A stretch of DNA of 49,412 bases from Candidatus Nealsoniibacteriota bacterium (GTDB lineage Bacteria > Patescibacteriota > Minisyncoccia > Minisyncoccales > GWA2-38-27), in assembly GCA_030616085.1 (NCBI GenBank), contig JAUWYA010000003.1, positions 1 to 49,412 of the forward strand, in the 5' to 3' direction. Made by a program: the position numbers and the translations under genes. Every line of letters starts with the position of its first letter. Position 1 is the stretch's first letter. The notes beneath the pieces were generated by a model. That model was not told the origin of the DNA and did not search any database. It worked only from the letters and a program-made list of their open reading frames with translations. Of this stretch, positions 1,145 through 45,492 are shown one piece after another.

Positions 1145-1870
1145 TTATCTTATCTTACAAACTTCGAAAAAAGGAGAAATTGCTTTTTGAATAGCTACAA
1201 GATATTTATCAGGATAGGGCTTTATCTTTTCAAATTTTGGGTCAAGAGTTTTCTCAGGTCTGAAATTCTGAAGATAGTATTTTACCTTTGGACCTCCTAT
1301 CCACTTGGCAATTTTTAAAAAATCTTTTTTATCTAAAATAGTCTGTACTACAGTAGTTCTGAATTCATAGTCTATTTTATTCTTTTTTAATATTTCTACG
1401 CTCTTTTCAATATTATTAACATCAACCTTCAAAATCTTAGAATATTTTTCTTTTGGCAGTTTTAGATCCATCGCAATATAATCAACTAATTCATTTTTAA
1501 TTAATTTCTTCAGTATTTTAGGATTAGAACCGTTAGTATCAAGTTTTACAGCATATCCCAATTCCTTTACTTTTTTAATAAACTTTGGCAAACCCCTATT
1601 AATAGTTGGCTCTCCCCCGCAAATTACTATTCCTTCTAATAATCCTTGCCTTTCTTTTAAAAAAGAAAATAACTCTTTTTCTGGAATTCTTGCCCCGTTA
1701 GAAAAATTTTTTCTAACGGGGTAAAACTGTTCTTTTATTTTCTCAGGCAAAACAAGTTCTGAAGAATAACACCAGGGACAGCGAAAATTACAGCCAGTAA
1801 AAAAAACCGTGGCAGCGAGCTTGCCAGGATAATCTATTAAAGTAAGTTTTTGCAATCCTCCAATAATCAT
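1145..1870 (-). CDS. nrdG: anaerobic ribonucleotide reductase activating protein (radical SAM)
   Basis: FFTGCNFRCPWCYSSE CxxxCxxC motif, ICGGEPT, adjacent to nrdD. Confidence 0.9.
   Translation of the reverse strand: MIIGGLQKLTLIDYPGKLAATVFFTGCNFRCPWCYSSELVLPEKIKEQFYPVRKNFSNGARIPEKELFSFLKERQGLLEGIVICGGEPTINRGLPKFIKKVKELGYAVKLDTNGSNPKILKKLIKNELVDYIAMDLKLPKEKYSKILKVDVNNIEKSVEILKKNKIDYEFRTTVVQTILDKKDFLKIAKWIGGPKVKYYLQNFRPEKTLDPKFEKIKPYPDKYLVAIQKAISPFFEVCKIR
1693..1721. mobile_element. palindromic element, 29 nt, inside nrdG (no TSD recognisable)
   Basis: ccccgttagaaaaattttttctaacgggg; encodes part of YPVRKNFSNGA in frame. Confidence 0.75.
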
Positions 1871-1885
1871 TGTTCTATGCTTTTA

Positions 1886-1943
1886 TTTCAAGATTATATG
1901 TTTTACCTTAGCGAATCAAGGTTCTGACGAAGTCAGGTTCTTA
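1886..1943 (+). repeat. repeat family B copy 1 (AGCGAATCAAGGTTCT-stem-GAA-stem-AGGTTCTTAT)
   Basis: ttaccttagcgaatcaaggttCTGACgaaGTCAGgttcttat; similar copies at 25514 (inverted), 34441, 34483. Confidence 0.75.
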
Positions 1944-4083
1944 TTTTAAATTCTTTTCTTTCTTTAAACTCTTGCCGCTTTCCAACATGCCATTGCTGTA
2001 CAGGCCTAAGATACCCAACTACTCGGGAATAAACCTCGCAAGGCTGCTTAATTGTACATTTAGGACATTGAAAGTGTTCTCCAGTTAAGTAACCATGGGT
2101 AGGACAAATTGAAAAAGTAGGAGTTAAAGTAATATATGGTAAATGGAAGTTTTCAAAAACCTTCTTAACTAAATTTTTAGCTATTTGAGCATCAGAGATT
2201 TTCTCTCCTAAAAAGAGATGCATTACTACGCCGCCAGTATATTTGCTTTGAATATCATCCTGAAGCTTCAAAGCATCAAAAGGATCATCAGTATAATTTA
2301 CTGGCAGCATTGTTGAATTCGTATAATATGGCACTTCTTTTGTCCCAGCAGTAATAATATCTGGGTATTTTTCTCTGTCTGATTTTGCCTGCCTATAACT
2401 TGTGCCTTCGCCAGGAGTAGCTTCAAGATTATACAAATAGCCGGTTTCTTCCTGATATTTTATCAATCTTTCCCGCATAAAATCCAAAATCTCAATAGCA
2501 AATCTCCTCCCCTGCTTAGAACCAACATCCTCTTCAATAAAATTCAAAAGAGCTTCATTCATTCCCATTAAACCAATGGTTGAGAAATGATTTCCAAAAT
2601 AAGAGTTGCGCATTTTTTTAACTGAATCTAAATAAAACTTTGAATAAGGATAAAGGCCTTTTTCTATAAAGTTATCTAAAGCTTTCCTCTTAATTTCCAA
2701 GCTTTCTTTAGCTAAGTCCATTAAATGGCCCAACCTTTCAAAAAACTCTTTTTTAGTCTTAGAAAGATATCCAATTCTCGACATATTAATCGTAACTACC
2801 CCAATACTTCCTGTAAGGGGCTGTGACCCAAATAACCCTCCTCCTCTTTTATAAAGTTCCTTGTTTGAGAGACGAAGTCTGCAACACATTGAACGATAAT
2901 CCTCAGGATTCATATCTGATTTAACAAAATTCTGAAAGTAATTAACTCCGTACTTTGCCGTTGCCTCCCATAAAGGATCTAAAGCTGGATTATCCCAGTC
3001 AAAATCTTTAGTTATAGAAACTGTTGGGATAGGAAAAGTAAAAGGTCTTCCTCGAGCATCACCCTCCATTAATCCCTCGTAAAAAGCCTTGATAAGCATG
3101 TCCATTTCTTTCTGAAATTCTCCATAAGTTTCTTTTTGAGCAACACCACCGATAATTACTGGCTGTTTGGCTAAAAAAGAAGGTGGTTTAATATCAAGGG
3201 TTAGATTTAGAAACGGAGTTTGAAATCCAACCCTAGTTGGTACCATACAGTTATATAAAAATCCTTGCATTGCCTGCTTGACTTGAGCATAATTAAACCC
3301 ATCGTAACGGATAAAAGGAGCAAGAAGTGTATCAAAATTTGAAACAGCATTCGCACCAGCGTTCTCTCCTTGAAGTGTAAAAAAGAAATTGACAAGCTGA
3401 CCCAAAGCAGTCCTGAAATGTTTTGGCGGACGGCACTCTAACTTCCTTGGCACCCCCCTGAAGCCACGCTTTAATAAATCATAAAGATCCCAGCCCATGC
3501 AGTAACATCCAATGGTCTCCAAATCATGTATGTGAAAATCTTCATTTGCCGCTGCCTCTCTGACTTCTTTAGGATAAACCTTATTCAACCAATATTTCTT
3601 AGAAATATCTGCAATTGCATACTGATTTAATCCCTGCAAAGAAAAAGTCATATTAGCGTTTTCATAGACCTGCCAGTCAAGTTCTTTTAGATATTTATCA
3701 ATCCTTTCACTGGATTCATCAATAGTCAGTGCTCCTTCACGAATTCTTCTTCTTTGCTCACGGTATAAGATATAGGCGCGGGCAGTATCTACCAGGCCTT
3801 CTAAAATTAAAACCTCCTCAACAATATCTTGAATTTGTTCAACTTGAGGAATTTCATCTTCTTTAAAGCGGCGATTCAAAATCTTAACTACTCTATCTGA
3901 AAGCTTTTTTGATCTTTTGCCATCACCCTGGCCAGTTGCAGTTATAGCTTTAAAAATAGCATCAGTAATTTTGGACGGCTCAAAATCTACTATTGTCCCG
4001 TCACGTTTTTTTACCTTCGTAATTTTCTTTTTGGAAAATTTTGGAATTGGAAGGTGAACTTTAGTAATTTTATCTTTAATCAT
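1933..4083 (-). CDS. nrdD: anaerobic ribonucleoside-triphosphate reductase
   Basis: 716 aa; ATP-cone N-terminus (KVKKRDGTIVDFEPSKI), C-terminal CPTHG/CPKC zinc site and RVVGYLRPVQQWHVGK glycyl-radical motif. Confidence 0.95.
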   Translation of the reverse strand: MIKDKITKVHLPIPKFSKKKITKVKKRDGTIVDFEPSKITDAIFKAITATGQGDGKRSKKLSDRVVKILNRRFKEDEIPQVEQIQDIVEEVLILEGLVDTARAYILYREQRRRIREGALTIDESSERIDKYLKELDWQVYENANMTFSLQGLNQYAIADISKKYWLNKVYPKEVREAAANEDFHIHDLETIGCYCMGWDLYDLLKRGFRGVPRKLECRPPKHFRTALGQLVNFFFTLQGENAGANAVSNFDTLLAPFIRYDGFNYAQVKQAMQGFLYNCMVPTRVGFQTPFLNLTLDIKPPSFLAKQPVIIGGVAQKETYGEFQKEMDMLIKAFYEGLMEGDARGRPFTFPIPTVSITKDFDWDNPALDPLWEATAKYGVNYFQNFVKSDMNPEDYRSMCCRLRLSNKELYKRGGGLFGSQPLTGSIGVVTINMSRIGYLSKTKKEFFERLGHLMDLAKESLEIKRKALDNFIEKGLYPYSKFYLDSVKKMRNSYFGNHFSTIGLMGMNEALLNFIEEDVGSKQGRRFAIEILDFMRERLIKYQEETGYLYNLEATPGEGTSYRQAKSDREKYPDIITAGTKEVPYYTNSTMLPVNYTDDPFDALKLQDDIQSKYTGGVVMHLFLGEKISDAQIAKNLVKKVFENFHLPYITLTPTFSICPTHGYLTGEHFQCPKCTIKQPCEVYSRVVGYLRPVQQWHVGKRQEFKERKEFKIRT

Positions 4084-4084
4084 A

Positions 4085-4162
4085 CCCTGTAGAAGAATTT
4101 CGAATTAAAAATTTCTTTGAAATTTTCATACTCCCGTAGAGATTCGAAATTTCTCTACGGGG
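4085..4162. mobile_element. palindromic element (CCCCGTAG subtype) at nrdD start, TSD CATA (4081-4084 / 4163-4166)
   Basis: ccctgtagaagaatttcgaat...attcgaaatttctctacgggg flanked by direct repeat cata. Confidence 0.8.
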
Positions 4163-4176
4163 CATAAAAAAATAAA

Positions 4177-4219: not shown

Positions 4220-4251
4220 TTCATTTTACCTAATATAAAAAGCGGGTCAAG

Positions 4252-4317
4252 CCCCGTTAGAAATCAAAAACTGTGGATAAATATTTTTATTGCCAACAAT
4301 CTCAATTTCTAACGGGG
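4252..4317. mobile_element. palindromic element, intergenic nrdD-ftsZ, TSD CAAG
   Basis: caag|ccccgttagaaat...atttctaacgggg|caag. Confidence 0.85.
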
Positions 4318-4359
4318 CAAGCCCGCCGAATTGTGGATAAGTCCCTAACTTTTCTATTT

Positions 4360-5292: not shown

Positions 5293-6495
5293 TTATGGTA
5301 TGAAAACTTTTAATATTTTTCTTAATATATTCCTGGGCTTTGGACTTTCCTCTAAATCAAGCCCTTCCAGAATCAAACCATACAGAGTAGACAAACTGGG
5401 CTCTGCTTGGAAATTGGCAAACCCTTGAGCAACTCCAATCCGACAAGGTAATTTTAGTTCTTTTTTGGCTATTTCTTTAATCCCGGGCAGCATTGCTCCG
5501 CCTCCAGTTAAGACAATTCCAGCTGGAAGCCTGGCTTGACGAGAAATTTTCTTTAATTCTTTATTAACTAAATCAAAAACTTCTGAAACTCTGGCTTCAA
5601 TAATATCTGTTAATTCTTTTCTTGAAAAAACAATGGATTCTTCTCCGCCAATTTTTATCTTCTTTTCTGCTTTCTTTTCTTTTTTAGAACAAGGAATTTT
5701 ACAAGTCCCAAATTCCAATTTTATCTTCTCAGCAGTATCAATATCTGTTTGAAGGCAAATAGCAATATCACTGGTAATATGACCTGACCCAAAAGGAAAG
5801 ACAGCCGCATGAATTAAATTTCCCTCCTCAAATACAGCCATCCCAATAGTCCCAGCCCCAATATCTAAAACGCAGACTCCCAGTTCTTTTTCTCTAAGGC
5901 TTAAGACAGCTCGAGCACTGGCTAAAGGATCCGGGATTAACTCACTAATCTGAAGACCAGAATCTAAAATTGTCTGGCTGGAGTTTTTCAAATAAGGAGA
6001 GAAGCCGCAAAGAATCAATGTCTCTGCCTCTAATCTCACTCCTTCCAATCCCAGCACCTGTTTAAGCCCCCCTTCTCCATCAACAATAAACTCTTTAGGA
6101 AAAACCTCAATAATTTCTCCATTTTTTGAAGGAAGAGAAATCGCCTGAGCAGCCTGCAAAACTCTTTTAATATCTTCTTCAGAGATTTTCTGATCAGCTC
6201 GGGAAACAGAAACTAAGCCCCGGGAAGAAATACAAGATATATGTCCTCCTCCAATATTGGCATAAACGCTCTCTATTTTTTGGCCGCAATCTTGTTCATT
6301 TTTCTTTACTAAAGAAGCTATAGTTGCTGCTGTTCTTGAAACATCAACCACTACTCCTTTTCTAATTCCTAAGGAAGATTCCTGATTCTGGCTTAAAATC
6401 TCAAAATCTCTTTCCCCGGGTTTTCTAGAAACAGAAAGCAGCTTTATAGAGCCTGAACCAATATCTAAAGCATTAATAATGTATTGCTTTGGCAT
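5293..6495 (-). CDS. ftsA: cell division protein FtsA
   Basis: MPKQYIINALDIGSGSIKLL..., VVVDVSRTAATIASLV, SVYANIGGGHI, CVLDIGAGTIGMAVFEEG, GIVLTGGGAMLPGI; start refined to internal Met. Confidence 0.9.
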   Translation of the reverse strand: MPKQYIINALDIGSGSIKLLSVSRKPGERDFEILSQNQESSLGIRKGVVVDVSRTAATIASLVKKNEQDCGQKIESVYANIGGGHISCISSRGLVSVSRADQKISEEDIKRVLQAAQAISLPSKNGEIIEVFPKEFIVDGEGGLKQVLGLEGVRLEAETLILCGFSPYLKNSSQTILDSGLQISELIPDPLASARAVLSLREKELGVCVLDIGAGTIGMAVFEEGNLIHAAVFPFGSGHITSDIAICLQTDIDTAEKIKLEFGTCKIPCSKKEKKAEKKIKIGGEESIVFSRKELTDIIEARVSEVFDLVNKELKKISRQARLPAGIVLTGGGAMLPGIKEIAKKELKLPCRIGVAQGFANFQAEPSLSTLYGLILEGLDLEESPKPRNILRKILKVFIP

Positions 6496-6913
6496 AATAT
6501 TCTTCTTTGTTCTGCATCTTCTTATGATCATATCCTGAAAGATGCAGAATAGCATGAATTAAAACACGAGCTAATTCTCTTTTAAATGTTGAATTATACC
6601 CCGTTAGAGATTCTTTCTCTTTGTGCTTCTTCTCTGTTCCCGTAATCTCTAACGGGGTATATATTTTAGCATTCTTCTTAATCTCTCTGAGACAGACAAC
6701 AATCTCATTTAATCCCTGGCCAAAAGATAAAACATCTGTTACCTTGTTCTTGCCCCGATATTTCTTATTAAGCTTCCTCATTCTTGCTTCTCCAACAAAA
6801 ACAATGGATAAATCAATCTCTTTTCTATTCTCACCCTTTAAAACTTTTTTTGCAACCCCTTTTACAAATTCCTCATCAACAGAAACTGTAGTTAGGTTGT
6901 TAATCTCGACCAT
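6473..6913 (-). CDS. ybeY: endoribonuclease YbeY
   Basis: IVFVGEARMRKLNKKYRGKNKVTDVLSFG and RVLIHAILHLSGYDH. Confidence 0.93.
   Translation of the reverse strand: MVEINNLTTVSVDEEFVKGVAKKVLKGENRKEIDLSIVFVGEARMRKLNKKYRGKNKVTDVLSFGQGLNEIVVCLREIKKNAKIYTPLEITGTEKKHKEKESLTGYNSTFKRELARVLIHAILHLSGYDHKKMQNKEEYYAKAIHY
6599..6657. mobile_element. palindromic element in frame in ybeY, TSD TATA
   Basis: tata|ccccgttagagatt...aatctctaacgggg|tata; 59+4=63 nt. Confidence 0.88.
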
Positions 6914-12206: not shown

Positions 12207-14252
12207 ATGAAATTAATTATCGTAGAGAGTCCCACAAAATCTAAAACCCTTCAAAAGTTTTTAGGGCCTGATTATACGATTAGGTCTTCTTTTGGTCATA
12301 TCCGGGATCTGCCAATAGATGAACTTGGAGTAGATATTGAGAATAATTTCAAACCAAAATATATTGTGCTTTCAAAATCAAAGAAAGTTATTTCAGATCT
12401 AAAAAAAGAGGCTCAGAAAGCAAAGACAATTATCCTAGCAACTGACGAAGACAGAGAAGGAGAAGCAATTTCCTGGCATCTTTCCCAAGTTCTTGGTTTA
12501 AAAGAACCTCAAAGAATTGTTTTCCATGAAATTACTAAATCAGCTATTGAGCAAGCCCTGAAAAATCCCAGACAAATTGATATGAATTTAGTTGACGCTC
12601 AGCAAGCAAGAAGAATTTTAGACAGAATCGTTGGATACAAACTTTCTCCTTTCTTATGGAAAAAAGTAGCCAGAGGATTGTCTGCTGGAAGGGTTCAATC
12701 AGTAACAGTAAGGTTAGTAGCTATAAGAGAGAAAGAAATTGAAGATTTCAAACCCCAAGAATATTGGACAATTGGAGCATTGCTAAAAAAAGAAGAAGAA
12801 TTTGAGGCCTTGCTTATTGAAAAAGATATTAAAACAAAAAAAGAAGCTGATGAAATTCTTAAAGATTTAAATGGAGCTGAATACAAAATTGAAAAAATTG
12901 ATAAAAAAGAAACGAAAAGAAATCCTTTGCCGCCTTTTACCACCAGCACTCTACAGCAAGAATCCTGGAAAAGATTCAGATTCCCAGCAAAATTCACAAT
13001 GAGCATTGCTCAAAAACTCTATGAAAAAGGGCATATTACTTATCACAGAACTGATTCTGTAAATCTTTCCCAATTATCTTTGTCTTTAGCTAAGAAATTT
13101 ATTGAGAATAAATACGGAGAAAACTATTATAATTTTAGAAAGTATAAATCAAAGGGGAAAGTGCAGGAAGCTCACGAAGCAATCAGGCCTACTTATTTAG
13201 ACAGAATACCTGGTCTTGATCAAAATCAAGAACGGCTTTATGACCTTATTCGGAGAAGATTTATTGCTTCACAAATGGCTTCAGCAATTTTTGATTCTAC
13301 TTCTATAGATATTAAAGCAAAAAAATACACCCCGTTAGAGGTTTCAAGATCAGGGAAAAAATACAAAACAAACAAACCTCTAACGGGGTACACTTTTCGA
13401 GCTTCTGGGCAGATTTTGAAATTTGATGGATTCCTAAAAGTTTATCCAATGAAATTTGAAGAAAATGAGTTACCAGAATTAGAAAAAGACGAGCTTTTAG
13501 AATTGATAAAACTTATCCCTTCTCAACACTTTACTCAACCGCCAGCTAGATACACTGAAGCCAGCTTGATTAAAGCTCTTGAGCAAAATGGAATTGGCCG
13601 CCCTTCAACCTACGCTCCAATTTTATCAACAATTCAAAACAAAAACTATATTGAAAAAAATGAGCAAAAAAGATTCCAGCCAACTGAAATTGGAACAGTT
13701 GTTAATAATCTTTTAGTAAAACATTTCCCTAAAATCGTTGATATTGAATTTACAGCTAAAATGGAAAATAGTTTAGATGAAATTGCTCAAAAAAAAGAAA
13801 AATGGATTAATGTGTGTAAAGATTTTTACGGCCCCTTTGAAGAAAACCTTCAGAAAAAATATAAAAAAGTTGACAAAAAAGAGATTACTGAAAAACCTAC
13901 CAATAAAAAATGTCTTAAATGCAAATCTGATTTGCTAATCCGTTTGGGCAGGTTTGGAAAATTCTATGCTTGTTCCACTTTCCCAAAATGTAAATATACT
14001 GAATCTTTAAAAGAAAATAAATTAAATATAAAGTGTCCTAAATGCGACAAAGGAGAATTAAGCGAAAAAAGAACTAAAAAGAGAAAGATATTTTATGGCT
14101 GCAATCAGTTCCCAAAATGCGACTTTGCTTTATGGGACAAACCTCTAAATGAGAAGTGTCCAGAATGCAACTCGCTCTTAATTGAAACAAAAAGGAAGCA
14201 AATCAAATGCTCCAATGAAAATTGCCAATTTAAGAAAGATGTGGTAAAATAG
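12207..14252 (+). CDS. topA: DNA topoisomerase I
   Basis: KLIIVESPTKSKTLQKFLG, ATDEDREGEAISWHL, YHRTDSVNLS, C-terminal zinc ribbons. Confidence 0.97.
   Translation: MKLIIVESPTKSKTLQKFLGPDYTIRSSFGHIRDLPIDELGVDIENNFKPKYIVLSKSKKVISDLKKEAQKAKTIILATDEDREGEAISWHLSQVLGLKEPQRIVFHEITKSAIEQALKNPRQIDMNLVDAQQARRILDRIVGYKLSPFLWKKVARGLSAGRVQSVTVRLVAIREKEIEDFKPQEYWTIGALLKKEEEFEALLIEKDIKTKKEADEILKDLNGAEYKIEKIDKKETKRNPLPPFTTSTLQQESWKRFRFPAKFTMSIAQKLYEKGHITYHRTDSVNLSQLSLSLAKKFIENKYGENYYNFRKYKSKGKVQEAHEAIRPTYLDRIPGLDQNQERLYDLIRRRFIASQMASAIFDSTSIDIKAKKYTPLEVSRSGKKYKTNKPLTGYTFRASGQILKFDGFLKVYPMKFEENELPELEKDELLELIKLIPSQHFTQPPARYTEASLIKALEQNGIGRPSTYAPILSTIQNKNYIEKNEQKRFQPTEIGTVVNNLLVKHFPKIVDIEFTAKMENSLDEIAQKKEKWINVCKDFYGPFEENLQKKYKKVDKKEITEKPTNKKCLKCKSDLLIRLGRFGKFYACSTFPKCKYTESLKENKLNIKCPKCDKGELSEKRTKKRKIFYGCNQFPKCDFALWDKPLNEKCPECNSLLIETKRKQIKCSNENCQFKKDVVK
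13330..13388. mobile_element. palindromic element in frame in topA, TSD TACA
   Basis: taca|ccccgttagaggttt...aaacctctaacgggg|taca; 59+4=63 nt. Confidence 0.92.
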
Positions 14253-15010: not shown

Positions 15011-15622
15011 TCATTTGAGGCATTTTTTTATTGTTTTATGGACTAACCAGGCGGATAAGATACCAACTGCGATACCGGCAAGAATATCTGCGGGCCAATG
15101 GATTCCTGTAAAAACCCTGGCTAAACAGATTAGAAAGCTGGATATAAAGAAGAAAACACCAGCTTTTTTATTGTAAAAATAAACAATTGTAGAAACAGCG
15201 AAAAAGAATGCGGCATGACCAGAAGGAAAAGCAGAGGCATTATGAGTCAAAAGCAAATTAACATTGTTTTCTACAAACGGTCTCGGTCTTTGCCAAATCC
15301 AGCGAATCAATTCAACAATAACAAACCTTGCTAAAATAGCAGAAATAATTGCCTCAACAATCATTTTTACCCCGTTAAATAGTTGCGGAGCAAATTTAAC
15401 TGGGTTAAAATATTTTCTAAATCCTACTGCCAAAAAGAGTAATAAAGAAAAAAGCAAAATATATCCAAGATATTCAGCTAAAAATATAGCCAAAACATCC
15501 AGCCAAAACCATGTTAAAGCAAATTGGTTTACCCCGTTAAAGATAAAATTATCAAAAAAATTAACGGAAAAAATCAAGAAATCTTTAACGGGGTTTATTA
15601 AATTAAAGAGAGATGCATCCAT
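15011..15622 (-). CDS. PAP2-family phosphatase (undecaprenyl-diphosphatase-like)
   Basis: RWIWQRPRPF, NASAFPSGHAAFFFAV, ARVFTGIHWPADILAG. Confidence 0.92.
   Translation of the reverse strand: MDASLFNLINPVKDFLIFSVNFFDNFIFNGVNQFALTWFWLDVLAIFLAEYLGYILLFSLLLFLAVGFRKYFNPVKFAPQLFNGVKMIVEAIISAILARFVIVELIRWIWQRPRPFVENNVNLLLTHNASAFPSGHAAFFFAVSTIVYFYNKKAGVFFFISSFLICLARVFTGIHWPADILAGIAVGILSAWLVHKTIKKCLK
15370..15404. mobile_element. palindromic element (GTTAAA subtype) in frame in PAP2 gene, imperfect TSD TTTA/TTAA
   Basis: ccccgttaaat-agttgcggagcaa-atttaactggg; 35+4=39 nt. Confidence 0.75.
15532..15593. mobile_element. palindromic element (GTTAAA subtype) in frame in PAP2 gene, TSD TTTA
   Basis: ttta|ccccgttaaagat...atctttaacgggg|ttta; 62+4=66 nt. 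Confidence 0.88.
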
Positions 15623-20052: not shown

Positions 20053-21723
20053 TTACTTTCTACGCTTTAATCTTTTTGCCCAATAAGAGCACATTCGCCG
20101 AGCAACAATAACTGAAACTTCTTTTTTATTTAAAAATCCCTTAATTGCGCTTTGAAACTCTTTAATGTTTATGGGATCAATAACCTTTATATTCTTAACC
20201 CCGCAGGCCTTGGCAACCTCATCAATCTTTATTTCCTCAGTAATTTCACCCATTCCTGTTTCTCCAACTCCTGGATTAGTTTGATGACCAGTCATTGCTG
20301 TAATTCGGTTATCCATCACAATAATTAAAGGATTTGATTTATTAAAGACAGTATTTATTAAAGCAGGAATTCCAGAATGAAAGAAAGTTGAATCACCAAT
20401 TAAAGTTATGAGTTTTTGGCCAGAACTCTTTTTAATTCCATGAGCTATGCCAATAGAAGAACCCATGCATGAAAGATAATCCTGAATATTATGAGGAGGA
20501 AAACCAGCTAACATATAACAACCGATATCACCTCCAAAAATTGTTCCTTTAGGAGCTACTTTTTTTATAGATGAAAAAATAAACCAATAAGAACAATCCG
20601 GACAAAGCCGAGGAAAACGTTTTGGAACTTCTAAAGAAGAATGTTTTGAAACTCTGTATTTCTTGCCAGATAATTTTGCTATAGCTGCTCCAACTTTTTC
20701 TGTATTTAATTCTCTAACTTCGGGTAAAACATCTTTTCCTAAAACTTGAAGCCCTGGATTAACTTCCTTTGTTAAAGCATTAACTTCTTTTTCTAAAAAT
20801 GGCTCCAGCTCTTCAACAATTAAAACTTTTTTAAGGCCTTTGATAAAGTTTTTAATCCTCTTCTCTGGTAAAGGATAAAAGAAAGCAAGTTTTAAAACCG
20901 GCAAGTCCATTTTCATTTCTTTAAGAACTTCCATCACATATAGATAAGAAATCCCAGAAGTAATAATACCTAACTTTCCTTTGCCTCCTATTCTGCTAGC
21001 CTTATCTTTTTCAGCAAAGTCTCTAATCTTTTCTATCTTCTCTAATAATTCTTCTTTCATTTCCAAGACTCTTGGAGGCATTGTAACAAACCTCTTAACA
21101 TCTTTAACAAACTTTCCTGCAAAGTTAGACTTCTTTGTTTTACCTATTTCCACTGGCATTTTCTGATGAGCAATCCTGGTAGTTGTTCTAACTATCACTG
21201 GAATATTAAATTTCTCTGAAATCTTAAAACCTAGTTTAACAAAGTCCTTTGCCTCCTGAGCATCTGACGGTTCTAATATTGGAATATGAGCTAAGTAAGC
21301 AAAAGCCCTACTGTTTTCTTCTGATTGACCAGAACTCCAACAAGAAGGATCATCAGCCACAATTATTACAGTAGGTCCTTTAGTGCCGGTATAAACAAAA
21401 GGTAGTAAAGCATCTGAGGCAACGTTCAAACCAAAGTTCTTCATTACTACTAAACACTTTAATCCTGAAAAGCTTGCTCCAACAGCAGCTTCTAAAGCTA
21501 CTTTTTCGTTAGTAGAAAACTCAAAGTAAACTCCGTGCTTTTTAGCTATTTTCCCAAAAATAATACCAACTTCTGAACTAGGTGTGCCAGGATAAGCTGA
21601 AACAAAATCCACTCCTGCTTCCAGAGCTCCTTGAACAATTGCTTCATTGCCTAATAATATTTTTTTCACCCCGTTAGAGATTCTTTCTTTTTGTTTCTTT
21701 ATTTTTGTCATAGTTAATAACAA
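20053..21723 (-). CDS. iorA: indolepyruvate:ferredoxin oxidoreductase alpha subunit
   Basis: LGNEAIVQGALEAGVDFVSAYPGTPSSEV, CPDCSYW, FGGDIGCYMLAGFPP, TLIGDSTFFHSGIPAL (TPP motif). Confidence 0.95.
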   Translation of the reverse strand: MLLTMTKIKKQKERISNGVKKILLGNEAIVQGALEAGVDFVSAYPGTPSSEVGIIFGKIAKKHGVYFEFSTNEKVALEAAVGASFSGLKCLVVMKNFGLNVASDALLPFVYTGTKGPTVIIVADDPSCWSSGQSEENSRAFAYLAHIPILEPSDAQEAKDFVKLGFKISEKFNIPVIVRTTTRIAHQKMPVEIGKTKKSNFAGKFVKDVKRFVTMPPRVLEMKEELLEKIEKIRDFAEKDKASRIGGKGKLGIITSGISYLYVMEVLKEMKMDLPVLKLAFFYPLPEKRIKNFIKGLKKVLIVEELEPFLEKEVNALTKEVNPGLQVLGKDVLPEVRELNTEKVGAAIAKLSGKKYRVSKHSSLEVPKRFPRLCPDCSYWFIFSSIKKVAPKGTIFGGDIGCYMLAGFPPHNIQDYLSCMGSSIGIAHGIKKSSGQKLITLIGDSTFFHSGIPALINTVFNKSNPLIIVMDNRITAMTGHQTNPGVGETGMGEITEEIKIDEVAKACGVKNIKVIDPINIKEFQSAIKGFLNKKEVSVIVARRMCSYWAKRLKRRK

Positions 21724-21764
21724 AGCATTATTTTCTTATATTGACCCCGTAATCTCTAACGGGG
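21669..21764. mobile_element. palindromic element at iorA start codon, TSD TTCA
   Basis: ttca|ccccgttagagatt...aatctctaacgggg|ttca. Confidence 0.92.
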
Positions 21765-22220: not shown

Positions 22221-24644
22221 CTATAAAACAAAATTAATTAATTTTCCAGAAATGAATATTGTTTTTTTGATTTTCTTGCCCTCTGTATATTTTAGCACTC
22301 TATCTCGCAATAAAACAGCCTTTTCAGCTTCTTTCTCTGAAATATCAGCATCAACTTCTATTTTGTCACGGACTTTGCCATTAATCTGAACAACTAAAAT
22401 TATCTTTTTTTCTTTAATCAGTTTTGAATCATATCTTGGCCATTTTTGCTCACAGCATAATCCTTTAAAACCTGCCCTTTCCCAAAGTTCTTCTGTTATA
22501 TGTGGAGCAAAAGGGCTTAATAGAATTAAAAATAAAGAATAATGAATTAAGGAAATTTCTTTTTGCTGTTCCATTTTATTAGCCAAAATCATTAATGAAG
22601 ATATTGCCGTATTAAATTTAAGCAATTCAATGTCTTCTGTTACTTTCTTTATTGTCTTGTGAACTAATTGTTTTAATTCTTTGCCATCTCCTAATTTTTC
22701 TTGAAACTTCCAAACCTTTTCTAAAAATCTTCTTACTCCTTTAACTCCCTTGGTATCCCAGAGAATCATCTGCTCAAAAGGACCTATAAACATCTCATAA
22801 ACTCTCATAGTGTCGGCTCCGTGTTCTTTAACAACTTTCTCAGGACTAATCACATTGCCTTTTGACTTAGACATTTTAATACCTCCTTGCCCAAGAATCA
22901 TCCCATGAGAAGTTCTCTTCTTGTACGGCTCTGAACCAATTGATCTTGGCACTGCTTTAATATCCCTTAAAAACTTATAAATAAAGCGGGAATAAAGCAA
23001 ATGCAGAGTAGTATGCTCCATCCCTCCGTTGTACCAATCAACAGGCATCCAATGTTCAAGCTTTTTTGGATCGGCTAATTTCTTATCATTAATAGGATCG
23101 CAATAGCGAAGATAATACCAATTAGAACCAGCCCAGTTTGGCATAACATCTGTTTCTCTTTGACCTGGTCCTTTGCATTTAGGACATTCAGCATTAACCC
23201 ATTTTTCAACCTTTGCCAAAGGCGACTGACCTTTTTCAGTTGGCTTGTAATTCTTAACCTCAGGCAGTTTGATTGGCAGATCTTGTTCCAATACTGGCTG
23301 CCAGCCGCACTTCTCACATTTTATCATTGGTATTGGTTCGCCCCAATATCTCTGTCTGGAAAAAATCCAATCTCTTAACTTATAATGAACTGCTTTTTTA
23401 GCAAAACCCTTTGCATTGAGCCATTCAGTTATTCTTTCTTTGGCTTGCTCTGACTTTATTCCAGTAAATCTGCCAGAGTTAATTAAAATGCCTTCTCCTT
23501 CATAAGCTTGTTTTGAGGGATCATATTTAGAATCTTTTGGTTTGATAACTTCAATAATAGGAAGATTATATCTTTTAGCAAAATCAAAATCACGCTGATC
23601 ATGAGCTGGTACAGCCATTATAGCGCCTGTGCCGTAATGCATTAAGACATAATCAGCCACAAAAATAGGGATTTTTCTGTTATTAACCGGGTTTGTAGCT
23701 TTAATGCCTTTTATCTCTATGCCTGTTTTTTCTTTATCCTCGCTAATCCTTTCTTTTTCTGCTTTCTTCTTTGATTTCTCAACATAATCTTTAACTTGTT
23801 TGTAATTGCTAATCTTACGTTTAAGCTTTTCAATTAAAGCATGCTCTGGAGCCAATACCAAATATGTACACCCAAACAAAGTATCAGCACGAGTAGTAAA
23901 CCCCGTTAGAGATAAATCTCTAAACGGGGTAAACACAGGGACTGGAAACTTTATCTCAGTTCCCTGGCTCCTTCCTATCCACTCTTTTTGGGAAACTTTA
24001 ACTCTTTCCGGATAATCAACTTTATCTAAATCATGAATTAGTCTATCGGCATATTTGGTAATCCTTAAAAGCCACTGTTCTTTTTCTTTTCTTCCAGCTT
24101 TTTTCCCGCAACGCTCACATTTACCATCAACAACTTCTTCATTGGCTAGACCAATCTTGCAAGATGGACACCAATTAATCGACATTTTAGCTTTGTAAGC
24201 TAATCCTTTTTTAAATAATTGAATAAATATCCATTGAGTCCATTTATAATATGACGGATCAGTAGTATTAATCTCTCTATTCCAATCAAAAGAAAGACCT
24301 AAGTCTTTTTGTTGACGTTTAAAATTAGCTGTATTTTTCCTGGTCACAATCGCTGGATGAGTTCTAGTTTTAATAGCATAGTTTTCAGTAGGCAAACCAA
24401 AAGCATCCCAGCCCATAGGAAATAAAACATTAAAACCTTGCATCCTTTTCTTTCTGGCTAAAATATCTAAAGCAACGTAACTTCTGCAATGGCCAACATG
24501 AAGCCCATCTCCAGAAGGATAAGGAAACTCCACCAAAAGGTAATACTTCGGCTTTTTTGACTTATCCAAAGATGCAAAAACGCCTGTTTCCTCCCATTTC
24601 TTCTGCCATTTTTTCTCAATTTTCTTAGGATTGTATTTTTCCAT
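22221..24644 (-). CDS. leuS: leucyl-tRNA synthetase
   Basis: FPYPSGDGLHVGHCRSY, WCPSCKIGLANEEVVDGKCERCG, KMSKSKGNVISPEKVV. Confidence 0.97.
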   Translation of the reverse strand: MEKYNPKKIEKKWQKKWEETGVFASLDKSKKPKYYLLVEFPYPSGDGLHVGHCRSYVALDILARKKRMQGFNVLFPMGWDAFGLPTENYAIKTRTHPAIVTRKNTANFKRQQKDLGLSFDWNREINTTDPSYYKWTQWIFIQLFKKGLAYKAKMSINWCPSCKIGLANEEVVDGKCERCGKKAGRKEKEQWLLRITKYADRLIHDLDKVDYPERVKVSQKEWIGRSQGTEIKFPVPVFTPFRDLSLTGFTTRADTLFGCTYLVLAPEHALIEKLKRKISNYKQVKDYVEKSKKKAEKERISEDKEKTGIEIKGIKATNPVNNRKIPIFVADYVLMHYGTGAIMAVPAHDQRDFDFAKRYNLPIIEVIKPKDSKYDPSKQAYEGEGILINSGRFTGIKSEQAKERITEWLNAKGFAKKAVHYKLRDWIFSRQRYWGEPIPMIKCEKCGWQPVLEQDLPIKLPEVKNYKPTEKGQSPLAKVEKWVNAECPKCKGPGQRETDVMPNWAGSNWYYLRYCDPINDKKLADPKKLEHWMPVDWYNGGMEHTTLHLLYSRFIYKFLRDIKAVPRSIGSEPYKKRTSHGMILGQGGIKMSKSKGNVISPEKVVKEHGADTMRVYEMFIGPFEQMILWDTKGVKGVRRFLEKVWKFQEKLGDGKELKQLVHKTIKKVTEDIELLKFNTAISSLMILANKMEQQKEISLIHYSLFLILLSPFAPHITEELWERAGFKGLCCEQKWPRYDSKLIKEKKIILVVQINGKVRDKIEVDADISEKEAEKAVLLRDRVLKYTEGKKIKKTIFISGKLINFVL
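23901..23929. mobile_element. palindromic element (29 nt) in frame in leuS, TSD TAAA
   Basis: taaa|ccccgttagagataaatctctaaacgggg|taaa; 29+4=33 nt. Confidence 0.95.
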
Positions 24645-31163: not shown

Positions 31164-32531
31164 CTACATTATAGCATTGTTTATATAACTTGTCAACCCA
31201 TTGATTTTAATCCGCTTCTGTTTCATTGTATCGCGGTTGCGAACTGTGACATCGTCTTTTTTTAAACTGTCAAAATCAATAGTGATGCAAAACAAAGTAC
31301 CAATCTCATCCTGACGGCGGTAGCGACGACCAATAGAACCAGTTTCATCATACTGACAAATAAAATCAGATTTTAATAGCTTATAAACTTGTTTTGCCTT
31401 TTTAACTATTTCTGCTTTATTCTTAACTAAAGGAAGCACAGCCGCTTTTACAGGAGCTAAATCTTTGTGAAGCTTTAAGAGAACTTCAATCTCTTTTACA
31501 GATTTAGTAGTTTTAGTTCTTCCTCCTTTTACTTCTTGATAAGCATCACATAAAAAAGCAAACAATGATCTATCAACGCCAACAGATGTTTCAATGATAT
31601 GCGGAAAATACTCTTGCCCTGAGCCTGCCGAAGGGTCATATTTCAAATCCTCTCCGCTATGCTTTGAATGATTGGATAAATCCCAATCTCCCCGATTATG
31701 GATTCCTTCAATTTCCTGCCAGCCAAAAGGAAACTTATACTCAATATCTATTGCTCTTTTAGCATAATGGGCTAATTCCTTTTTAGGAACTTCATAAGTT
31801 CTTAAATTCTTCTTATTCAGACCTAAGTTATAATACCAATTTAATCTTTGCTTGAGCCAAAAATCAAAGAATTTATCAACTTTCTTCGGTTCACAAAACC
31901 ATTGCATTTCCATTTGTTCAAATTCTCTTGTTCGATAGATAAAATCTTTGGGATTAATTTCATTCCTAAACGCCTTTCCAATCTGAGCAATTCCAAAAGG
32001 AATCTTCAGACGCATTGTTTGCATAACATTCTTAAAATTAGTATAGATTCCCTGGCATGTTTCAGGCCTTAAATAGGTTAGAGAAGCCTCATCTTCTACT
32101 GGCCCAACAAATGTCTTCATCATTAAATTAAACTTCTTTGGCTTTGTTAAATCCCCTCCGCAATCAGGACATTTCGGATTTCGGATTTCGGATTTCGGAT
32201 TTACGATTTCGTCAAGACGAAATCGTTTATGGCATTTTCTGCACTCTACTAATTCATCAGCAAAACCAGCTGTTAAATGACCAGATGCCTTCCAAACCTC
32301 TGGACTCATCAAAATAGAAGCATCTAAACCAACAACATCGTCGTGCTTTTTTGTCATTTCATCCCACCAGGCCTTTTTAATATTATTTTTCATTTCTACG
32401 CCCAAAGGACCGAAATCATAGCAAGAGCTAAATCCTCCATAAATCTCAGACGAAGGAAAAATAAATCCCCTTCTTTTGCTTAAAGATACAATTTTTTCCA
32501 CCCCGTTAGAAATAGTTAATTTATCTCTCAT
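31164..32531 (-). CDS. glyS: glycyl-tRNA synthetase (class II dimeric type)
   Basis: EKIVSLSKRRGFIFPSSEIYGGFSSCYDFGPLGVEMKNNIK, YLRPETCQGIYTNFKNV; ancestral start probably GTG at 32499-32501. Confidence 0.96.
   Translation of the reverse strand: MRDKLTISNGVEKIVSLSKRRGFIFPSSEIYGGFSSCYDFGPLGVEMKNNIKKAWWDEMTKKHDDVVGLDASILMSPEVWKASGHLTAGFADELVECRKCHKRFRLDEIVNPKSEIRNPKCPDCGGDLTKPKKFNLMMKTFVGPVEDEASLTYLRPETCQGIYTNFKNVMQTMRLKIPFGIAQIGKAFRNEINPKDFIYRTREFEQMEMQWFCEPKKVDKFFDFWLKQRLNWYYNLGLNKKNLRTYEVPKKELAHYAKRAIDIEYKFPFGWQEIEGIHNRGDWDLSNHSKHSGEDLKYDPSAGSGQEYFPHIIETSVGVDRSLFAFLCDAYQEVKGGRTKTTKSVKEIEVLLKLHKDLAPVKAAVLPLVKNKAEIVKKAKQVYKLLKSDFICQYDETGSIGRRYRRQDEIGTLFCITIDFDSLKKDDVTVRNRDTMKQKRIKINGLTSYINNAIM
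31168..31196 (-). promoter_or_regulatory. sigma70 consensus promoter TTGACA-17-TATAAT inside glyS 3' end
   Basis: minus: TTGACAAGTTATATAAACAATGCTATAAT. Confidence 0.87.
31617..31635. repeat. short palindromic repeat encoding (D)PSAGSGQ in glyS
   Basis: ccctgagcctgccgaaggg. Confidence 0.6.
32171..32226. repeat. TTCGGATT tandem repeat plus palindrome inside glyS
   Basis: tttcggatttcggatttcggatttcggattt then acgatttcgtc-aa-gacgaaatcgt (32203-32226). Confidence 0.75.
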
Positions 32532-32565
32532 AATTATTCATAAACCCCTAAAATTTCTAACGGGG
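32501..32565. mobile_element. palindromic element at glyS start codon, TSD TCCA
   Basis: tcca|ccccgttagaaat...atttctaacgggg|tcca. Confidence 0.92.
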
Positions 32566-41450: not shown

Positions 41451-41773
41451 GGGGATGAATAGTTTCGACAGAAGTTTTTTGTCAAAATAGGGCAGGCAAA
41501 AATATTCTCAAATAAGTGCCAACTTGTTTAAGAAACCCGCGTTAGCTTTTGCTTAACGCCATCCTTTTCGTTGACTCTCGATAGACGAAAAAGGGTGTCA
41601 TTTATCGAGATAGATAGTTCTTTTTTGTCTCAGAAAAACTATCAAAACAAACGAGACTAAGGTGTTGGAATTTTGCTTATTACATATCTAACACACTAAA
41701 ATCAAAAATAAGCTAAGCTTGTAGAACTATTTTGATAAAACTTTTGGATGCGAGTTCGCCCTCGCCATCTCCA
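41451..41773 (+). ncRNA. ssrA: tmRNA (SsrA)
   Basis: 5' GGGGATGAATAGTTTCGACAG, 3' GCGAGTTCGCCCTCGCCATCTCCA; follows smpB. Confidence 0.93.
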
Positions 41774-41775
41774 CA

Positions 41776-42285
41776 GTGCAAAGAAAACCATTAGTCAACA
41801 ATTTAATAAGGGCTAGAGAAGTAAGACTAATTGATGAAACTGGAAAACAATTAGGAGTTTTGGCATTAGAAAAAGCGCTCCAAATGGCTAAAGAGCGCGG
41901 TTTCGATTTAATCCAAGTCACTGAAAAACTTGACCCGCCTGTTTGCAAAATAATGGATTATGGAAAATATCTTTATCATTTGAAAAAGAAAGAAAAATCA
42001 GCTAAACACCACACAGGCGGCGAACTTAAAGGAATAAGGTTGACTTTTGGAATTTCTGAACATGATTTAGAAACAAGAGTAAAACAAGCAGAAAAATTCC
42101 TAAAAAAAGGAGATAGGATTAGAATAGAAATGAAATTAAGGGGCAGACAAAAAGCTCTTCAGGGATTTGCCAGAGAAAAGATAAAAAAATTCCTGGAAAC
42201 TTTAGAAAAATCAATTCCTATAAAAACAGAAAGAGAATTAAAAAAACAACCAAGAGGATTAACAATGATTATTTCAAAAAGATGA
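41776..42285 (+). CDS. infC: translation initiation factor IF-3 (GTG start)
   Basis: NNLIRAREVRLIDETGKQLGVL, PPVCKIMDYGKYLY, FGISEHDLETRVKQAEKFLKKGDRIRIEMKLRGRQ. Confidence 0.95.
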   Translation: MQRKPLVNNLIRAREVRLIDETGKQLGVLALEKALQMAKERGFDLIQVTEKLDPPVCKIMDYGKYLYHLKKKEKSAKHHTGGELKGIRLTFGISEHDLETRVKQAEKFLKKGDRIRIEMKLRGRQKALQGFAREKIKKFLETLEKSIPIKTERELKKQPRGLTMIISKR

Positions 42286-42286
42286 A

Positions 42287-42407
42287 CCCCGTTAGAGATA
42301 ACTAAAGATTAATATTTATGAATAATAAAATAAAAAAGACAAATAAAGGTTATATTATTAATACTAGCAGGATACGGTTGTCTAAAGATAACCTATCTCT
42401 AACGGGG
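42287..42407. mobile_element. palindromic element between infC stop and rpmI start, TSD TGAA
   Basis: tgaa|ccccgttagagata...tatctctaacgggg|tgaa. Confidence 0.92.
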
Positions 42408-42589: not shown

Positions 42590-42590
42590 T

Positions 42591-42938
42591 ATGGTTAGAG
42601 TAAAAAGAGGAGCAACTGCACACAAAAGAAGGAAAAAAGTATTAAAACATACTAAAGGTTTTCGTTGGGGAAGAAAATCAAAATATAAATCAGCAAAAGA
42701 GGCCTTGCTTCACGCTTGGACATATTCATATAGAGATAGAAGAACAAAAAAAAGAGAGTTTAGAAAACTCTGGCAAATACAAATTAATGCTGCCTGCCGG
42801 AAACAAGACATCTCTTATAGCCGCTTCATTCACGGATTGAAAGAAAAAAAGATTGAACTTGATAGAAAAATATTATCTGAATTAGTAAAAAACAATGGCA
42901 AGATATTTGAAAAAATCGTAGAGAAAGTAAAAGAATAA
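42591..42938 (+). CDS. rplT: 50S ribosomal protein L20
   Basis: VKRGATAHKRRKKVLKHTKGFRWGRKSKYKSAKEALLHAWTYSYRDRRTKKREFRKLWQIQINAACR. Confidence 0.97.
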   Translation: MVRVKRGATAHKRRKKVLKHTKGFRWGRKSKYKSAKEALLHAWTYSYRDRRTKKREFRKLWQIQINAACRKQDISYSRFIHGLKEKKIELDRKILSELVKNNGKIFEKIVEKVKE

Positions 42939-42966
42939 AAACCCCATCAACATGACGGGGTTTTTG
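42937..42966 (+). terminator. intrinsic terminator after rplT
   Basis: aaaaccccatcaacatgacggggttttt. Confidence 0.7.
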
Positions 42967-42969
42967 ATT

Positions 42970-44736
42970 TTATTTAAAATATTTTAATAACTTAGATAAT
43001 GGTTGGGTGTTAATTATATCTTTCTTCTCGGCCCAGCCGCGGCGGGCCTGGGCAATTCCAAATTCAATTAATGCTAATTGATTTTTATGATGAGCATCAG
43101 TATTAATTATCATTTTCACTCCTATTTTTTTTGCTTTTCTAATATTAATATCTTTTAAATCTAATCTATAAGGAGATGAGTTAATTTCAAGAATTGTATT
43201 AGTTTCTTTTGCTGCTTTTAAAATCTTATCAAAATCAATTTGATATTCATCTCTTTGTTTAAGTATTCTTCCAGTTGGATGAGAGATAATATCAACATTA
43301 GGATTCCTCATTGCTGTAATTATTCTTTGTGTCATTTTGTCTCTATCCATTTTCATACTGGAATGAACCCCAGCAATAACAAAATCTAGCTTAGCTAAAA
43401 CTTCATCTTTAATATCAATTGAACCATCATTCATAATATTACCTTCGCAACCTTGCAAAATTCTAATTTTAGAACTAAGCTTCTTATCCAATTTATCAAT
43501 CTCTTTTCTCTGTTTTGCTAATTGTTTTTCATTTAATCCATGCTCTATTCTTAAAAACTTAGTATGATCCGCAATTCCAATATATTTATAACCGATTTCT
43601 TGAGCAGCTTGCGCTATCTCTTCAATTGAATTTTTCCCGCCATCCCAATTAGAATGACAATGCAAGTCGCCTTTTATATCATTATATCCAATAATTTTAG
43701 GCAATTTCTTTTTTTGAGAAAGCTCTATTTCTCCTTGATTTTCTCTCATCTCCGGAGCAATTAAATCAAGCCCTATTGCTCTATATACTTCTTTTTCATT
43801 CTTGCCAGCAATCATCTTAGAGCCCTTAAAAACTCCATACTCATTTAATTTCAATCCTTTATGTATAGCAAGCCGACGAGTAGCAATGTTATGTTCTTTA
43901 GAGCCAGTAAAATACTGTAAAGCAGATCCATAGCTTTTTGAAGGAACAACTCTCAAATCCATATCAAACTTGCCCTTGGTTCTAACAGAAGAGCGGGTAG
44001 AACCCTTGCTCCAAACTTTGACTATTTCGGGCATAGAAACAAAAAAAGCCATTACTTTTTCTGGCTTTTTTGAAACTGCTAAAATATCAACATCTCCTAT
44101 TGTTTCCTTCATTCTTCTAACAGAACCGGCAATGCTTATCTTTTCAACTTCTTTTAGTTTATTTAATCTTTCTAAAACTTTATCTACAAGAGGTATTATC
44201 TCTCCCAAAAGAAATCTTCCTTTGCTCCTTTTTAAAAAAGCAATTCCTTGCAAAACATTCTTTTCTGTTTTTTCTCCAAATCCTTCCAAAGGAGCTATTT
44301 TATGAGCCTTAGCTGCTTTTTCTAAATCTTTTAGATTTTTAATCTTTAGCTTTTGATAAAGAACTTTTACTTTCTTAACTCCCATCCCTTCAACTGCAAT
44401 CAATTCTCCTAAATTTATCGGTGTTTCCTTTTTTAATCTTTCATAAGTTTTAACCCTGCCTGTTTTTAAATATTCTTCAATCTTTAAAGCAATGTTCTTT
44501 CCTACTCCAGGAACTTCTTCTAATGCTTTTAGCCCTCCTTGTTTATAAACATGTTCAATGTCTTGTTCCAAGCTTTCTAAAACAATCGCAACTCTTTTAT
44601 AAGCATAGGCCCTGAAAGAACCATTATCCATCTCAAGATAATTCGCCATATCATAAAATATCCTGGCTAATTCTTGATTGTTCACCCCGTTAGAAATTTT
44701 ATTATTTTTTTGAACCATAGATTTTATGTTGTCCAA
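42970..44736 (-). CDS. polX: DNA polymerase/3'-5' exonuclease PolX (PolX + PHP)
   Basis: ELARIFYDMANYLEMD, HhH EVPGVGKNIALKIEEYL, SVRRMKETIGDVDIL, PHP GDLHCHSNWDGGKNS, GIADHTKF. Confidence 0.93.
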   Translation of the reverse strand: MDNIKSMVQKNNKISNGVNNQELARIFYDMANYLEMDNGSFRAYAYKRVAIVLESLEQDIEHVYKQGGLKALEEVPGVGKNIALKIEEYLKTGRVKTYERLKKETPINLGELIAVEGMGVKKVKVLYQKLKIKNLKDLEKAAKAHKIAPLEGFGEKTEKNVLQGIAFLKRSKGRFLLGEIIPLVDKVLERLNKLKEVEKISIAGSVRRMKETIGDVDILAVSKKPEKVMAFFVSMPEIVKVWSKGSTRSSVRTKGKFDMDLRVVPSKSYGSALQYFTGSKEHNIATRRLAIHKGLKLNEYGVFKGSKMIAGKNEKEVYRAIGLDLIAPEMRENQGEIELSQKKKLPKIIGYNDIKGDLHCHSNWDGGKNSIEEIAQAAQEIGYKYIGIADHTKFLRIEHGLNEKQLAKQRKEIDKLDKKLSSKIRILQGCEGNIMNDGSIDIKDEVLAKLDFVIAGVHSSMKMDRDKMTQRIITAMRNPNVDIISHPTGRILKQRDEYQIDFDKILKAAKETNTILEINSSPYRLDLKDINIRKAKKIGVKMIINTDAHHKNQLALIEFGIAQARRGWAEKKDIINTQPLSKLLKYFK

Positions 44737-44765
44737 AGCTCCTTATTTTATAATTTCTAACGGGG
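44685..44765. mobile_element. palindromic element at polX start codon, TSD TTCA
   Basis: ttca|ccccgttagaaat...atttctaacgggg|ttca. Confidence 0.92.
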
Positions 44766-44773
44766 TTCATACA

Positions 44774-45415
44774 TTATGTCTTTGGCAAAAGAAATATCTT
44801 CTGCCGCGGTAGTTTTGGAAGAATGTCTTTCATGATAAACAAGAATAAAAGGGCGGCTATTACATTAAAAACGCTTACTCCAATGAAAAGAGGCGTAAAA
44901 CCAAAAGATTGAGCTACTGTTCCTCCAATAATCCCGGTTATTCCTGCTCCAAGCCCAAGAGCAGAACTGTCCAAACTCCAGCAGAATGCTTCTCTTCTTT
45001 TCTCAATATGACGAGTAAATATTGCTGACCAAGAAGGAAGGGCCATTGCCATTCCCAAAGCATGGATTATTTGAGCAATATATATATGCCAAGATATGGT
45101 AGCGAATATAAAGATGATCGGGGTAACAGCAGTTAAAAGAGTACCAATGAATAAAGCGTAATAATCATCTTTTTCTCCATGGTTTAAATCCAGATAATGA
45201 GCTATGGGTACTTGAAGAACAGATTTTACAAGCAAATAAATTCCAACAGCTATTCCAACAACTTTGACATTTCCTCCCTGAACATTATTAACAATAAAAA
45301 TAGCTAAAATCGGACCAATCAAACCCCAGCCAGAATTCAGAAACAAATCAGAGAAAACCATTATCTTTACAACTTTGTTTATCCCTTTTCTCTTTTTCTT
45401 TTTTTTCTTTGCCAT
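44774..45415 (-). CDS. half-length MFS-type membrane protein
   Basis: 213 aa, about 6 predicted TM segments; IMVFSDLFLNSGWGLIGPILAIFI, MALPSWSAIFTRHI. Confidence 0.7.
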   Translation of the reverse strand: MAKKKKKKRKGINKVVKIMVFSDLFLNSGWGLIGPILAIFIVNNVQGGNVKVVGIAVGIYLLVKSVLQVPIAHYLDLNHGEKDDYYALFIGTLLTAVTPIIFIFATISWHIYIAQIIHALGMAMALPSWSAIFTRHIEKRREAFCWSLDSSALGLGAGITGIIGGTVAQSFGFTPLFIGVSVFNVIAALLFLFIMKDILPKLPRQKIFLLPKT

Positions 45416-45416
45416 A

Positions 45417-45492
45417 CCCCGTAGTGAAAATTTAATAATGATTTCTGAAAGAAATCCTATGCCGCGTAGCGGATTAAATTTCTACTACAGGG
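45417..45492. mobile_element. palindromic element (CCCCGTAG subtype) at MFS start, TSD CATA
   Basis: cata|ccccgtagtgaaaattt...aaatttctactacaggg|cata. Confidence 0.85.

Follow-up and report, generated by a model that had tools for sequence, protein, structure and literature searches.

Short palindromic elements in a Patescibacteria genome and a 278-bp GIY-YIG element as their candidate autonomous partner

Background

A 49,412-nt stretch of the genome of Candidatus Nealsoniibacteriota bacterium (contig JAUWYA010000003.1; the whole stretch is called the window here) carries 13 copies of a short palindromic element, lying in and at the start of genes, and raises the question of what these copies are and what moves them. 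The original prediction took them for miniature inverted-repeat transposable elements (MITEs) and suggested looking for a transposase gene with matching terminal inverted repeats (TIRs). A candidate partner with matching TIRs is indeed present in the host genome (G000; 740 kb in 35 contigs), but instead of a recognised transposase it carries a gene for a GIY-YIG nuclease. Judging from sequence, the palindromes are probably MITEs that belong to a minimal DNA element with this 86-codon nuclease as its one gene. No description of a GIY-YIG element with TIRs and target-site duplications (TSDs) was found in the open-access literature, and one may exist outside it. The candidate autonomous element is the more important part of the finding.

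Results

A GIY-YIG gene between the shared termini

The candidate autonomous form is 278 bp long and consists of one 86-codon, single-domain GIY-YIG gene between the termini that it shares with the short copies. The ends are a 13-bp inverted repeat, (C/T/G)CCCGTTAGAGAT and its complement, and the target duplication is 4 bp, most often TNNA. A profile search of the host genome with PF01541 gave five matches, three of which are complete single-domain genes placed exactly between TIRs with a perfect TSD: those on contigs C1 (278 bp, TSD TGAA), C26 (278 bp, TTCA) and C33 (317 bp, type II ends CCCCGTAGAAGAATTTCGAA, CATA). The match on C3 is truncated where the contig ends, at its TIR; the fifth match scores poorly, under the family cut-off, and has no such flanks. 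Contigs C29 and C30 each end in a further GIY-YIG fragment, as would be expected if near-identical copies disrupt the assembly. With contigs ending inside the element on C3, C29 and C30, the true copy number is probably underestimated. The only other species of the genus compared (G001) has a single GIY-YIG gene, of the same anatomy; it is the ortholog of the C26 gene, in a syntenic block that is 92% identical. The second terminus type, with CCCCGTAG ends and CATA repeats, has a GIY-YIG gene of its own, and the existence of this type II element explains the CCCCGTAG subtype that the original prediction had set apart (copies at 4085 and 45417).

The protein scores 60.1 bits against PF01541 (cut-off 22.6). 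Over 158 pairs of GIY-YIG genes the median dN/dS is 0.13, and Y5, Y16, R26, H30 and E62, the GIY-YIG catalytic positions, are nearly invariant. The nuclease gene is under purifying selection and its function is kept. By sequence, the closest solved structures (1zg2, 1ywl, 7wme) are UPF0213 proteins, with SLX1 matching weakly. A search with PADLOC gave no match. Neither the window nor 16 GIY-YIG loci gave an intron match in Rfam, and neither a group I nor a group II intron was recognised there. Given so strong an association between gene and ends, the nuclease is the likely mobiliser.

Target duplications and empty sites

Are the short copies insertions at all? The terminus CCCCGTTARA, which the original prediction proposed to scan for, occurs 161 times in the host genome against none for the reversed control, and the full palindrome pattern 30 times against none, which excludes chance palindromes. 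Elements were then parsed in stretches around the terminus matches. Under the strict pattern, 38 of 43 parsed elements have identical flanking tetramers; under a looser one, 61 of 75 candidates have perfect flanking 4-mers. The preference for TNNA targets noted in the window extends to the whole genome (50 of 58 perfect tetramers, overlapping calls removed). The dominant length is 59 bp, and the TIR measures 13 bp among the 57 elements with a perfect TSD that were analysed.

Alignment of the window with G001 shows element-free sites with a single tetramer at 4252 (GCGGGT-CAAG-CCCGCC), 15532 (TTTA) and 23901 (TAAA). Since these empty sites carry one tetramer only, the copies are insertions that duplicate 4 bp. 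Element-sized gaps are found at 13330 (63 bp at the topA ortholog) and 4085, and the element at 15370 is absent too; at 6599 and 21669 the alignment is too poor for the sites to be counted as clean empty sites. G001 has no palindrome of this pattern, and the entire CCCCGTTAGA-ended short family is missing there. That the palindromes exist and are mobile is practically certain. With empty sites in a close relative and 4-mer identity far above chance, their interpretation as MITEs is upheld: TIRs, a TSD of fixed length with an empty site and an autonomous relative sharing the ends were all found, the enzymatic role of that relative being putative. One host copy, L014, has both mismatched arms (AGATT/AACCTC) and mismatched tetramers (TTTA/TACA), as expected of a recombinant copy. 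A pair of termini 1.9 kb apart on C13 was considered as a large autonomous copy and rejected, for it encloses ordinary genes.

Covariation of the two arms

TIR positions 1 and 7-13 vary among copies, yet within each copy the arms remain complements of one another, up to an abrupt end at position 14, so that covariation extends over exactly 13 bp. In the host genome, position 11 is complementary in 51 of 57 elements (best shuffle 43). Among loci from several phyla, described below, position 13 is complementary in 69 of 69 (best shuffle 42) and position 1 in 67 of 69 (best shuffle 41). In ordinary TIR transposons the two arms of a copy are not expected to stay in step within one genome. Because the arms are mutually complementary in each copy, a fold-back intermediate (hairpin or cruciform) is probable, and we put the chances at about even that such an intermediate exists with one arm templating the other. 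Selection for symmetric ends is an alternative explanation of the covariation.

A conserved covarying stem, together with the location at start codons, is also what would be seen if the hairpins were non-mobile structural or regulatory RNA elements under selection. Empty sites and TSDs contradict this, as do insertion in either orientation within genes, the lack of the whole CCCCGTTAGA-ended short family in G001 and the absence of any Rfam match. As the main explanation a non-mobile RNA element is refuted by the empty sites and the lack of Rfam matches, and we give it almost no credence; co-option of single copies as RNA or regulatory elements is possible.

Relatives across phyla

A protein search, whose ranking favoured proteins with the TIR-encoded SLTG tail, gave 79 close relatives from many Patescibacteria lineages, Omnitrophota, Planctomycetota, Thermodesulfobacteriota, Nitrospirota and others. 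A TIR of at least 8 bp together with a perfect 4-bp TSD was found in 37 of the 79 loci, as against 2 of 276 shifted placements. A recognisable right end is present in 72 loci, 69 of which also have a left end; the outermost bases are complementary in 67 of these 69 (T/A in 33, C/G in 30 and G/C in 4). In most loci the stop codon of the nuclease open reading frame (ORF) begins at the first base outside the element. Copies ending in A rebuild an ATG in 34 of 36 cases, and an ORF of at least 60 codons follows in 30; for ATGs in general within these loci the figure is 30%. Phyla are intermingled in the protein tree, with 34 label changes where 26 would be the least possible, but the tree is poorly resolved and its phylum labels are open to binning errors of metagenome-assembled genomes.

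Among 286 sampled genomes of the class, short palindromes were found in 69 and a nuclease relative in 156. Palindromes occur in 52 of the 156 genomes with a nuclease relative versus 17 of the 130 without (p = 9e-5), and in 21 of the 41 genomes with a close relative versus 48 of the other 245 (p = 4e-5). The short palindromes of other genera have the same ends, with perfect TSDs in 10 of 20 sampled.

Several side observations concern the surroundings of GIY-YIG genes. More distant genes have related but different ends (CCCTGTTAAATAA), mostly without a TSD; at L263-L273 and L281 other inverted repeats (CCCTGTTAAATAA and TTGTCCTCCTAACTTTTTGCG) flank them, which suggests several element families. 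The GIY-YIG genes of L081, L084 and L086 (G013), and of L071 near a tRNA, are inside or next to tRNA genes, and a portion of the tRNA sequence recurs on the far side; this suggests another kind of mobility, aimed at tRNAs. Further AT-rich palindromes (GCGTAATAAATTTT, CGCGTAAAATG) adjoin the GIY-YIG genes of L071, L074 and L082, in genomes of the same family. No relative could be confirmed in viral, phage or plasmid collections.

Some insertion sites recur. In different genomes, L175, L183 and L204 occupy one site (TGAATATGAAAATCTC), which lies upstream of a pheT-like gene; their ends are G..C or T..A. L202 has the same site with a different right flank. L131, L161 and L165 (TTTA targets) are insertions in the conserved GFTLIE motif of pilin-like genes, with GFTLIE rebuilt downstream as judged by eye. 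Shared sites of both kinds would suit classical homing, in which free-standing GIY-YIG homing endonucleases are copied by homologous repair and the palindromes are decayed remnants; GIY-YIG is a known homing-endonuclease fold, and there are weak matches to phrog_5123 and to a group I intron endonuclease model. Homing, however, requires flanking homology and yields no target duplication, whereas many unrelated tetramers are duplicated in one genome and the empty sites show a gain of 4 bp. Moreover, the 59-bp and 29-bp copies carry no gene. We consider homing very improbable.

Copies inside genes and at start codons

Direct reading of the window confirmed all 13 copies at the positions and with the termini originally reported. 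Perfect flanking tetramers are present in 11 of the 13, as claimed; the copy at 15370 matches in 3 of 4 bases (TTTA/TTAA) and the copy at 1693 shows no match.

Within the window, the in-frame hosts are TopA, LeuS, YbeY, a PAP2 phosphatase (two copies) and an NrdG2-like activase. The topA gene (12207-14252) holds a 59-bp element on the plus strand (13330..13388, TSD TACA) that encodes TPLEVSRSGKKYKTNKPLTG; the remaining in-frame copies are on the minus strand. The ybeY gene (6473-6913) contains a 59-bp element (6599..6657, TSD TATA) encoding TPLEITGTEKKHKEKESLTG, and leuS (22221-24644) a 29-bp element (23901..23929, TSD TAAA) encoding TPFRDLSLTG. The PAP2 gene (15011-15622) has two elements of the CCCCGTTAAA type, one of 35 bp (15370..15404) and one of 62 bp near the N-terminus (15532..15593, TSD TTTA). 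A 29-bp element (1693..1721) with unmatched flanks CTTG/TAAA encodes YPVRKNFSNG in the activase gene (1145-1870). Outside the window, LigA carries an in-frame copy (TPLEVNELEGKHWKNIPLTG).

The original prediction held that, for copies inside coding sequence, element plus repeat is always a multiple of three. In the host genome 22 copies were called intragenic at first, two of them falsely (the copy at 42287, which is at the rpmI start, and L040, which is inside a nested copy), and the claim holds for all 20 genuine ones, each in frame and open. They are found in codon phase 1 or 2; phase 0, in which the terminus would be read as CCC CGT TAG, has none. The contrast with other copies (p = 8e-4, with the two false calls included) is partly built in, because the commonest element, of 59 bp, makes 63 with its repeat. 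Selection for in-frame survivors is supported by length and also by codon phase, the phase closed by TAG being empty.

The remaining window copies had been classed as non-coding or at start codons, and all prove to be at a start codon except a 66-bp element without assigned strand (4252..4317, TSD CAAG), which is intergenic, upstream of nrdD. The start-site hosts are IorA-like, GlyS, PolX, NrdD, an MFS (major facilitator superfamily) gene and, as read from the sequence, L35. On the minus strand, a 96-bp element (21669..21764, TSD TTCA, TGAA on the gene strand) has turned the ATG of the iorA-like gene (20053-21723) into GTG; it contains an internal ATG in frame with the gene, and G001 has an intact ATG there. 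A 65-bp element (32501..32565, minus strand, TSD TCCA, TGGA on the gene strand) leaves GTG as the glyS start, and an 81-bp element (44685..44765, minus strand, TSD TTCA, i.e. TGAA) leaves GTG at polX and likewise has an internal ATG in frame. At rpmI a 121-bp element (42287..42407, plus strand, TSD TGAA) leaves a GTG that overlaps a TGA stop; the product, L35, was identified by eye from the reading MKTRKSIKKR, and rpl20 comes next. A tmRNA gene lies upstream of this rpmI/rpl20 region, at 41451-41776.

Two copies on the minus strand are of the CCCCGTAG type. One (45417..45492, TSD CATA) lies directly before the start codon of the MFS gene (44774-45415). The other (4085..4162) lies directly before that of nrdD; its location and CATA flanks (4081-4084 and 4163-4166) had been given correctly, but it is a composite rather than a simple element, with a third CATA and an inner terminus inside. 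Its outer ends fit the CCCCGTAG subtype and resemble those of the type II GIY-YIG element L053. Genome-wide, 15 parsed copies besides the 20 intragenic ones stand at start codons with a usable start left, and the rpmI copy makes 16. In these insertions either A|TGNN becomes G|TGNN or TATG is duplicated, and GTG, ATG or TATG remains.

Discussion

A mechanism consistent with these observations can be outlined. The nuclease would recognise the 13-bp ends, folded or paired, of long and short copies alike, and would cut the target with a 4-nt stagger; the element would be inserted and the gaps filled, giving the 4-bp duplication. The intermediate would fold back, one arm serving as template for the other. 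Within genes, the only survivors are in-frame copies that avoid the TAG phase, and the protein gains a short hydrophilic stretch (PVRD..ISNG or PLE..SLTG). Where a start codon is hit, the element's last base and the TG of the target rebuild GTG or ATG. Because the target supplies the stop (TGA/TAA) of the autonomous copy, this stop and the host start can share bases (ATGA or GTGA), and the autonomous element would sit as a translationally coupled leader cistron before the host gene.

Some facts weigh against the nuclease as mobiliser. A 13-bp TIR with a TSD of fixed length is usually the mark of a DDE transposase, and we know of no GIY-YIG enzyme that joins strands. The association across genomes is moderate, 17 genomes being palindrome-positive with no nuclease detected. 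About half of the distant GIY-YIG loci have no matching tetramers, and 20 more distant relatives gave three TSD calls, of which only one looks real (controls, 2 of 40). A mismatched pair of flanks recurs, TTTA...TGAA at the site TTTATGAA, which equals TTCA...TAAA in the other orientation (L143, L147, L149, L152, L187, L193, L199; L133, L141, L155, L170, L267-L279). These flanks could be a second, non-duplicating type of junction into TTTATGAA, or nested copies as in L267, which lies within another copy and for which the sought empty site gave no clean answer. Finally, the host genome has three rve-domain transposase ORFs (C29:450-791, C4:13664-13936 and C31:218-559).

The TIR with its fixed-length TSD and the rve ORFs would fit a conventional DDE transposon, unassembled here or lost, of which the palindromes are the MITEs, with the GIY-YIG gene as a passenger between the TIRs. 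However, no DDE transposase gene was found between TIRs, the genome has no PF01609 (DDE_Tnp_1) match, and none of the three rve ORFs has CCCCGTTAGA ends. Between the TIRs there is no ORF but that of the GIY-YIG protein, which takes up almost the whole 278 bp, ends in codons formed by the TIR itself and is under purifying selection. The arrangement recurs across phyla, and each terminus type carries its own GIY-YIG gene. A DDE origin is thus unlikely. A GIY-YIG mobiliser being preferred, these elements may well represent a new superfamily of prokaryotic DNA transposons, with an 86-aa GIY-YIG nuclease as putative transposase, a fold-back palindrome intermediate, a leader cistron at start codons and derivatives of 29-140 bp that are tolerated in essential proteins.

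If the nuclease does mobilise the element, a fold known from homing and repair has given rise to a full TIR/TSD transposon. An autonomous element could then be only 278 bp long, and few of the autonomous transposable elements known would be as small. It would account for some of the many small GIY-YIG genes of Patescibacteria, more than half of the sampled genomes of the class having a relative, and would illustrate how peptide inserts arise in TopA, LeuS, LigA and YbeY of ultra-small genomes. Insertion at a start codon that is then rebuilt is an unusually harmless strategy.

Comparison with known systems

Prokaryotic MITEs are attributed to insertion sequence (IS) elements with transposases (PMC10969869). 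Like the present copies, they are short and non-coding, have TIRs, a TSD and high copy number, and include some in-frame fusions (PMC10969869); here, in contrast, the sole candidate partner that shares the ends of the copies has a gene for a GIY-YIG nuclease, and the arms covary in each copy. The original prediction also drew an analogy with Rickettsia palindromic elements, which holds for the in-frame effect and not beyond it. Both are palindromes in frame in housekeeping ORFs and are kept in the protein. The Rickettsia elements are about 150 bp long (PMC10969869), whereas those described here measure 29-140 bp and have clear 4-bp TSDs, empty sites, a start-codon class and a candidate autonomous partner.

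IS elements with DDE transposases share the TIR and TSD, and the IS200/IS605 and REP (repetitive extragenic palindromic) systems are similar in hairpin ends (IS200/IS605); in our elements no DDE or Y1 enzyme lies between the ends. Hairpin-type families give no TSD, and a typical IS is several times longer than 278 bp. GIY-YIG homing endonucleases (I-TevI and I-BmoI types, and free-standing T4-like phage genes) likewise have the catalytic domain in a mobile gene, but here there is no intron, the single 86-aa domain has no separate DNA-binding domain, and TIRs, TSDs at many unrelated sites and gene-less derivatives are present. The single-domain UPF0213 and SLX1-like proteins, the closest solved relatives by sequence, are cellular proteins and not TIR-flanked elements. 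SLX1 is a structure-specific nuclease, an activity that would suit a cruciform substrate.

Transfer of GIY-YIG genes from Patescibacteria has been reported (PMC12455944). A study of insertions in rRNA genes of the Candidate Phyla Radiation (CPR) describes some that resemble neither group I nor group II introns and contain GIY-YIG ORFs, as well as many short, ORF-less insertions of less than 200 bp (PMC11270868). No TIR, TSD or link to MITEs is reported in the parts consulted. If the nuclease is the mobiliser, the element would offer a candidate explanation for these unexplained GIY-YIG genes and short insertions in CPR rRNA genes.

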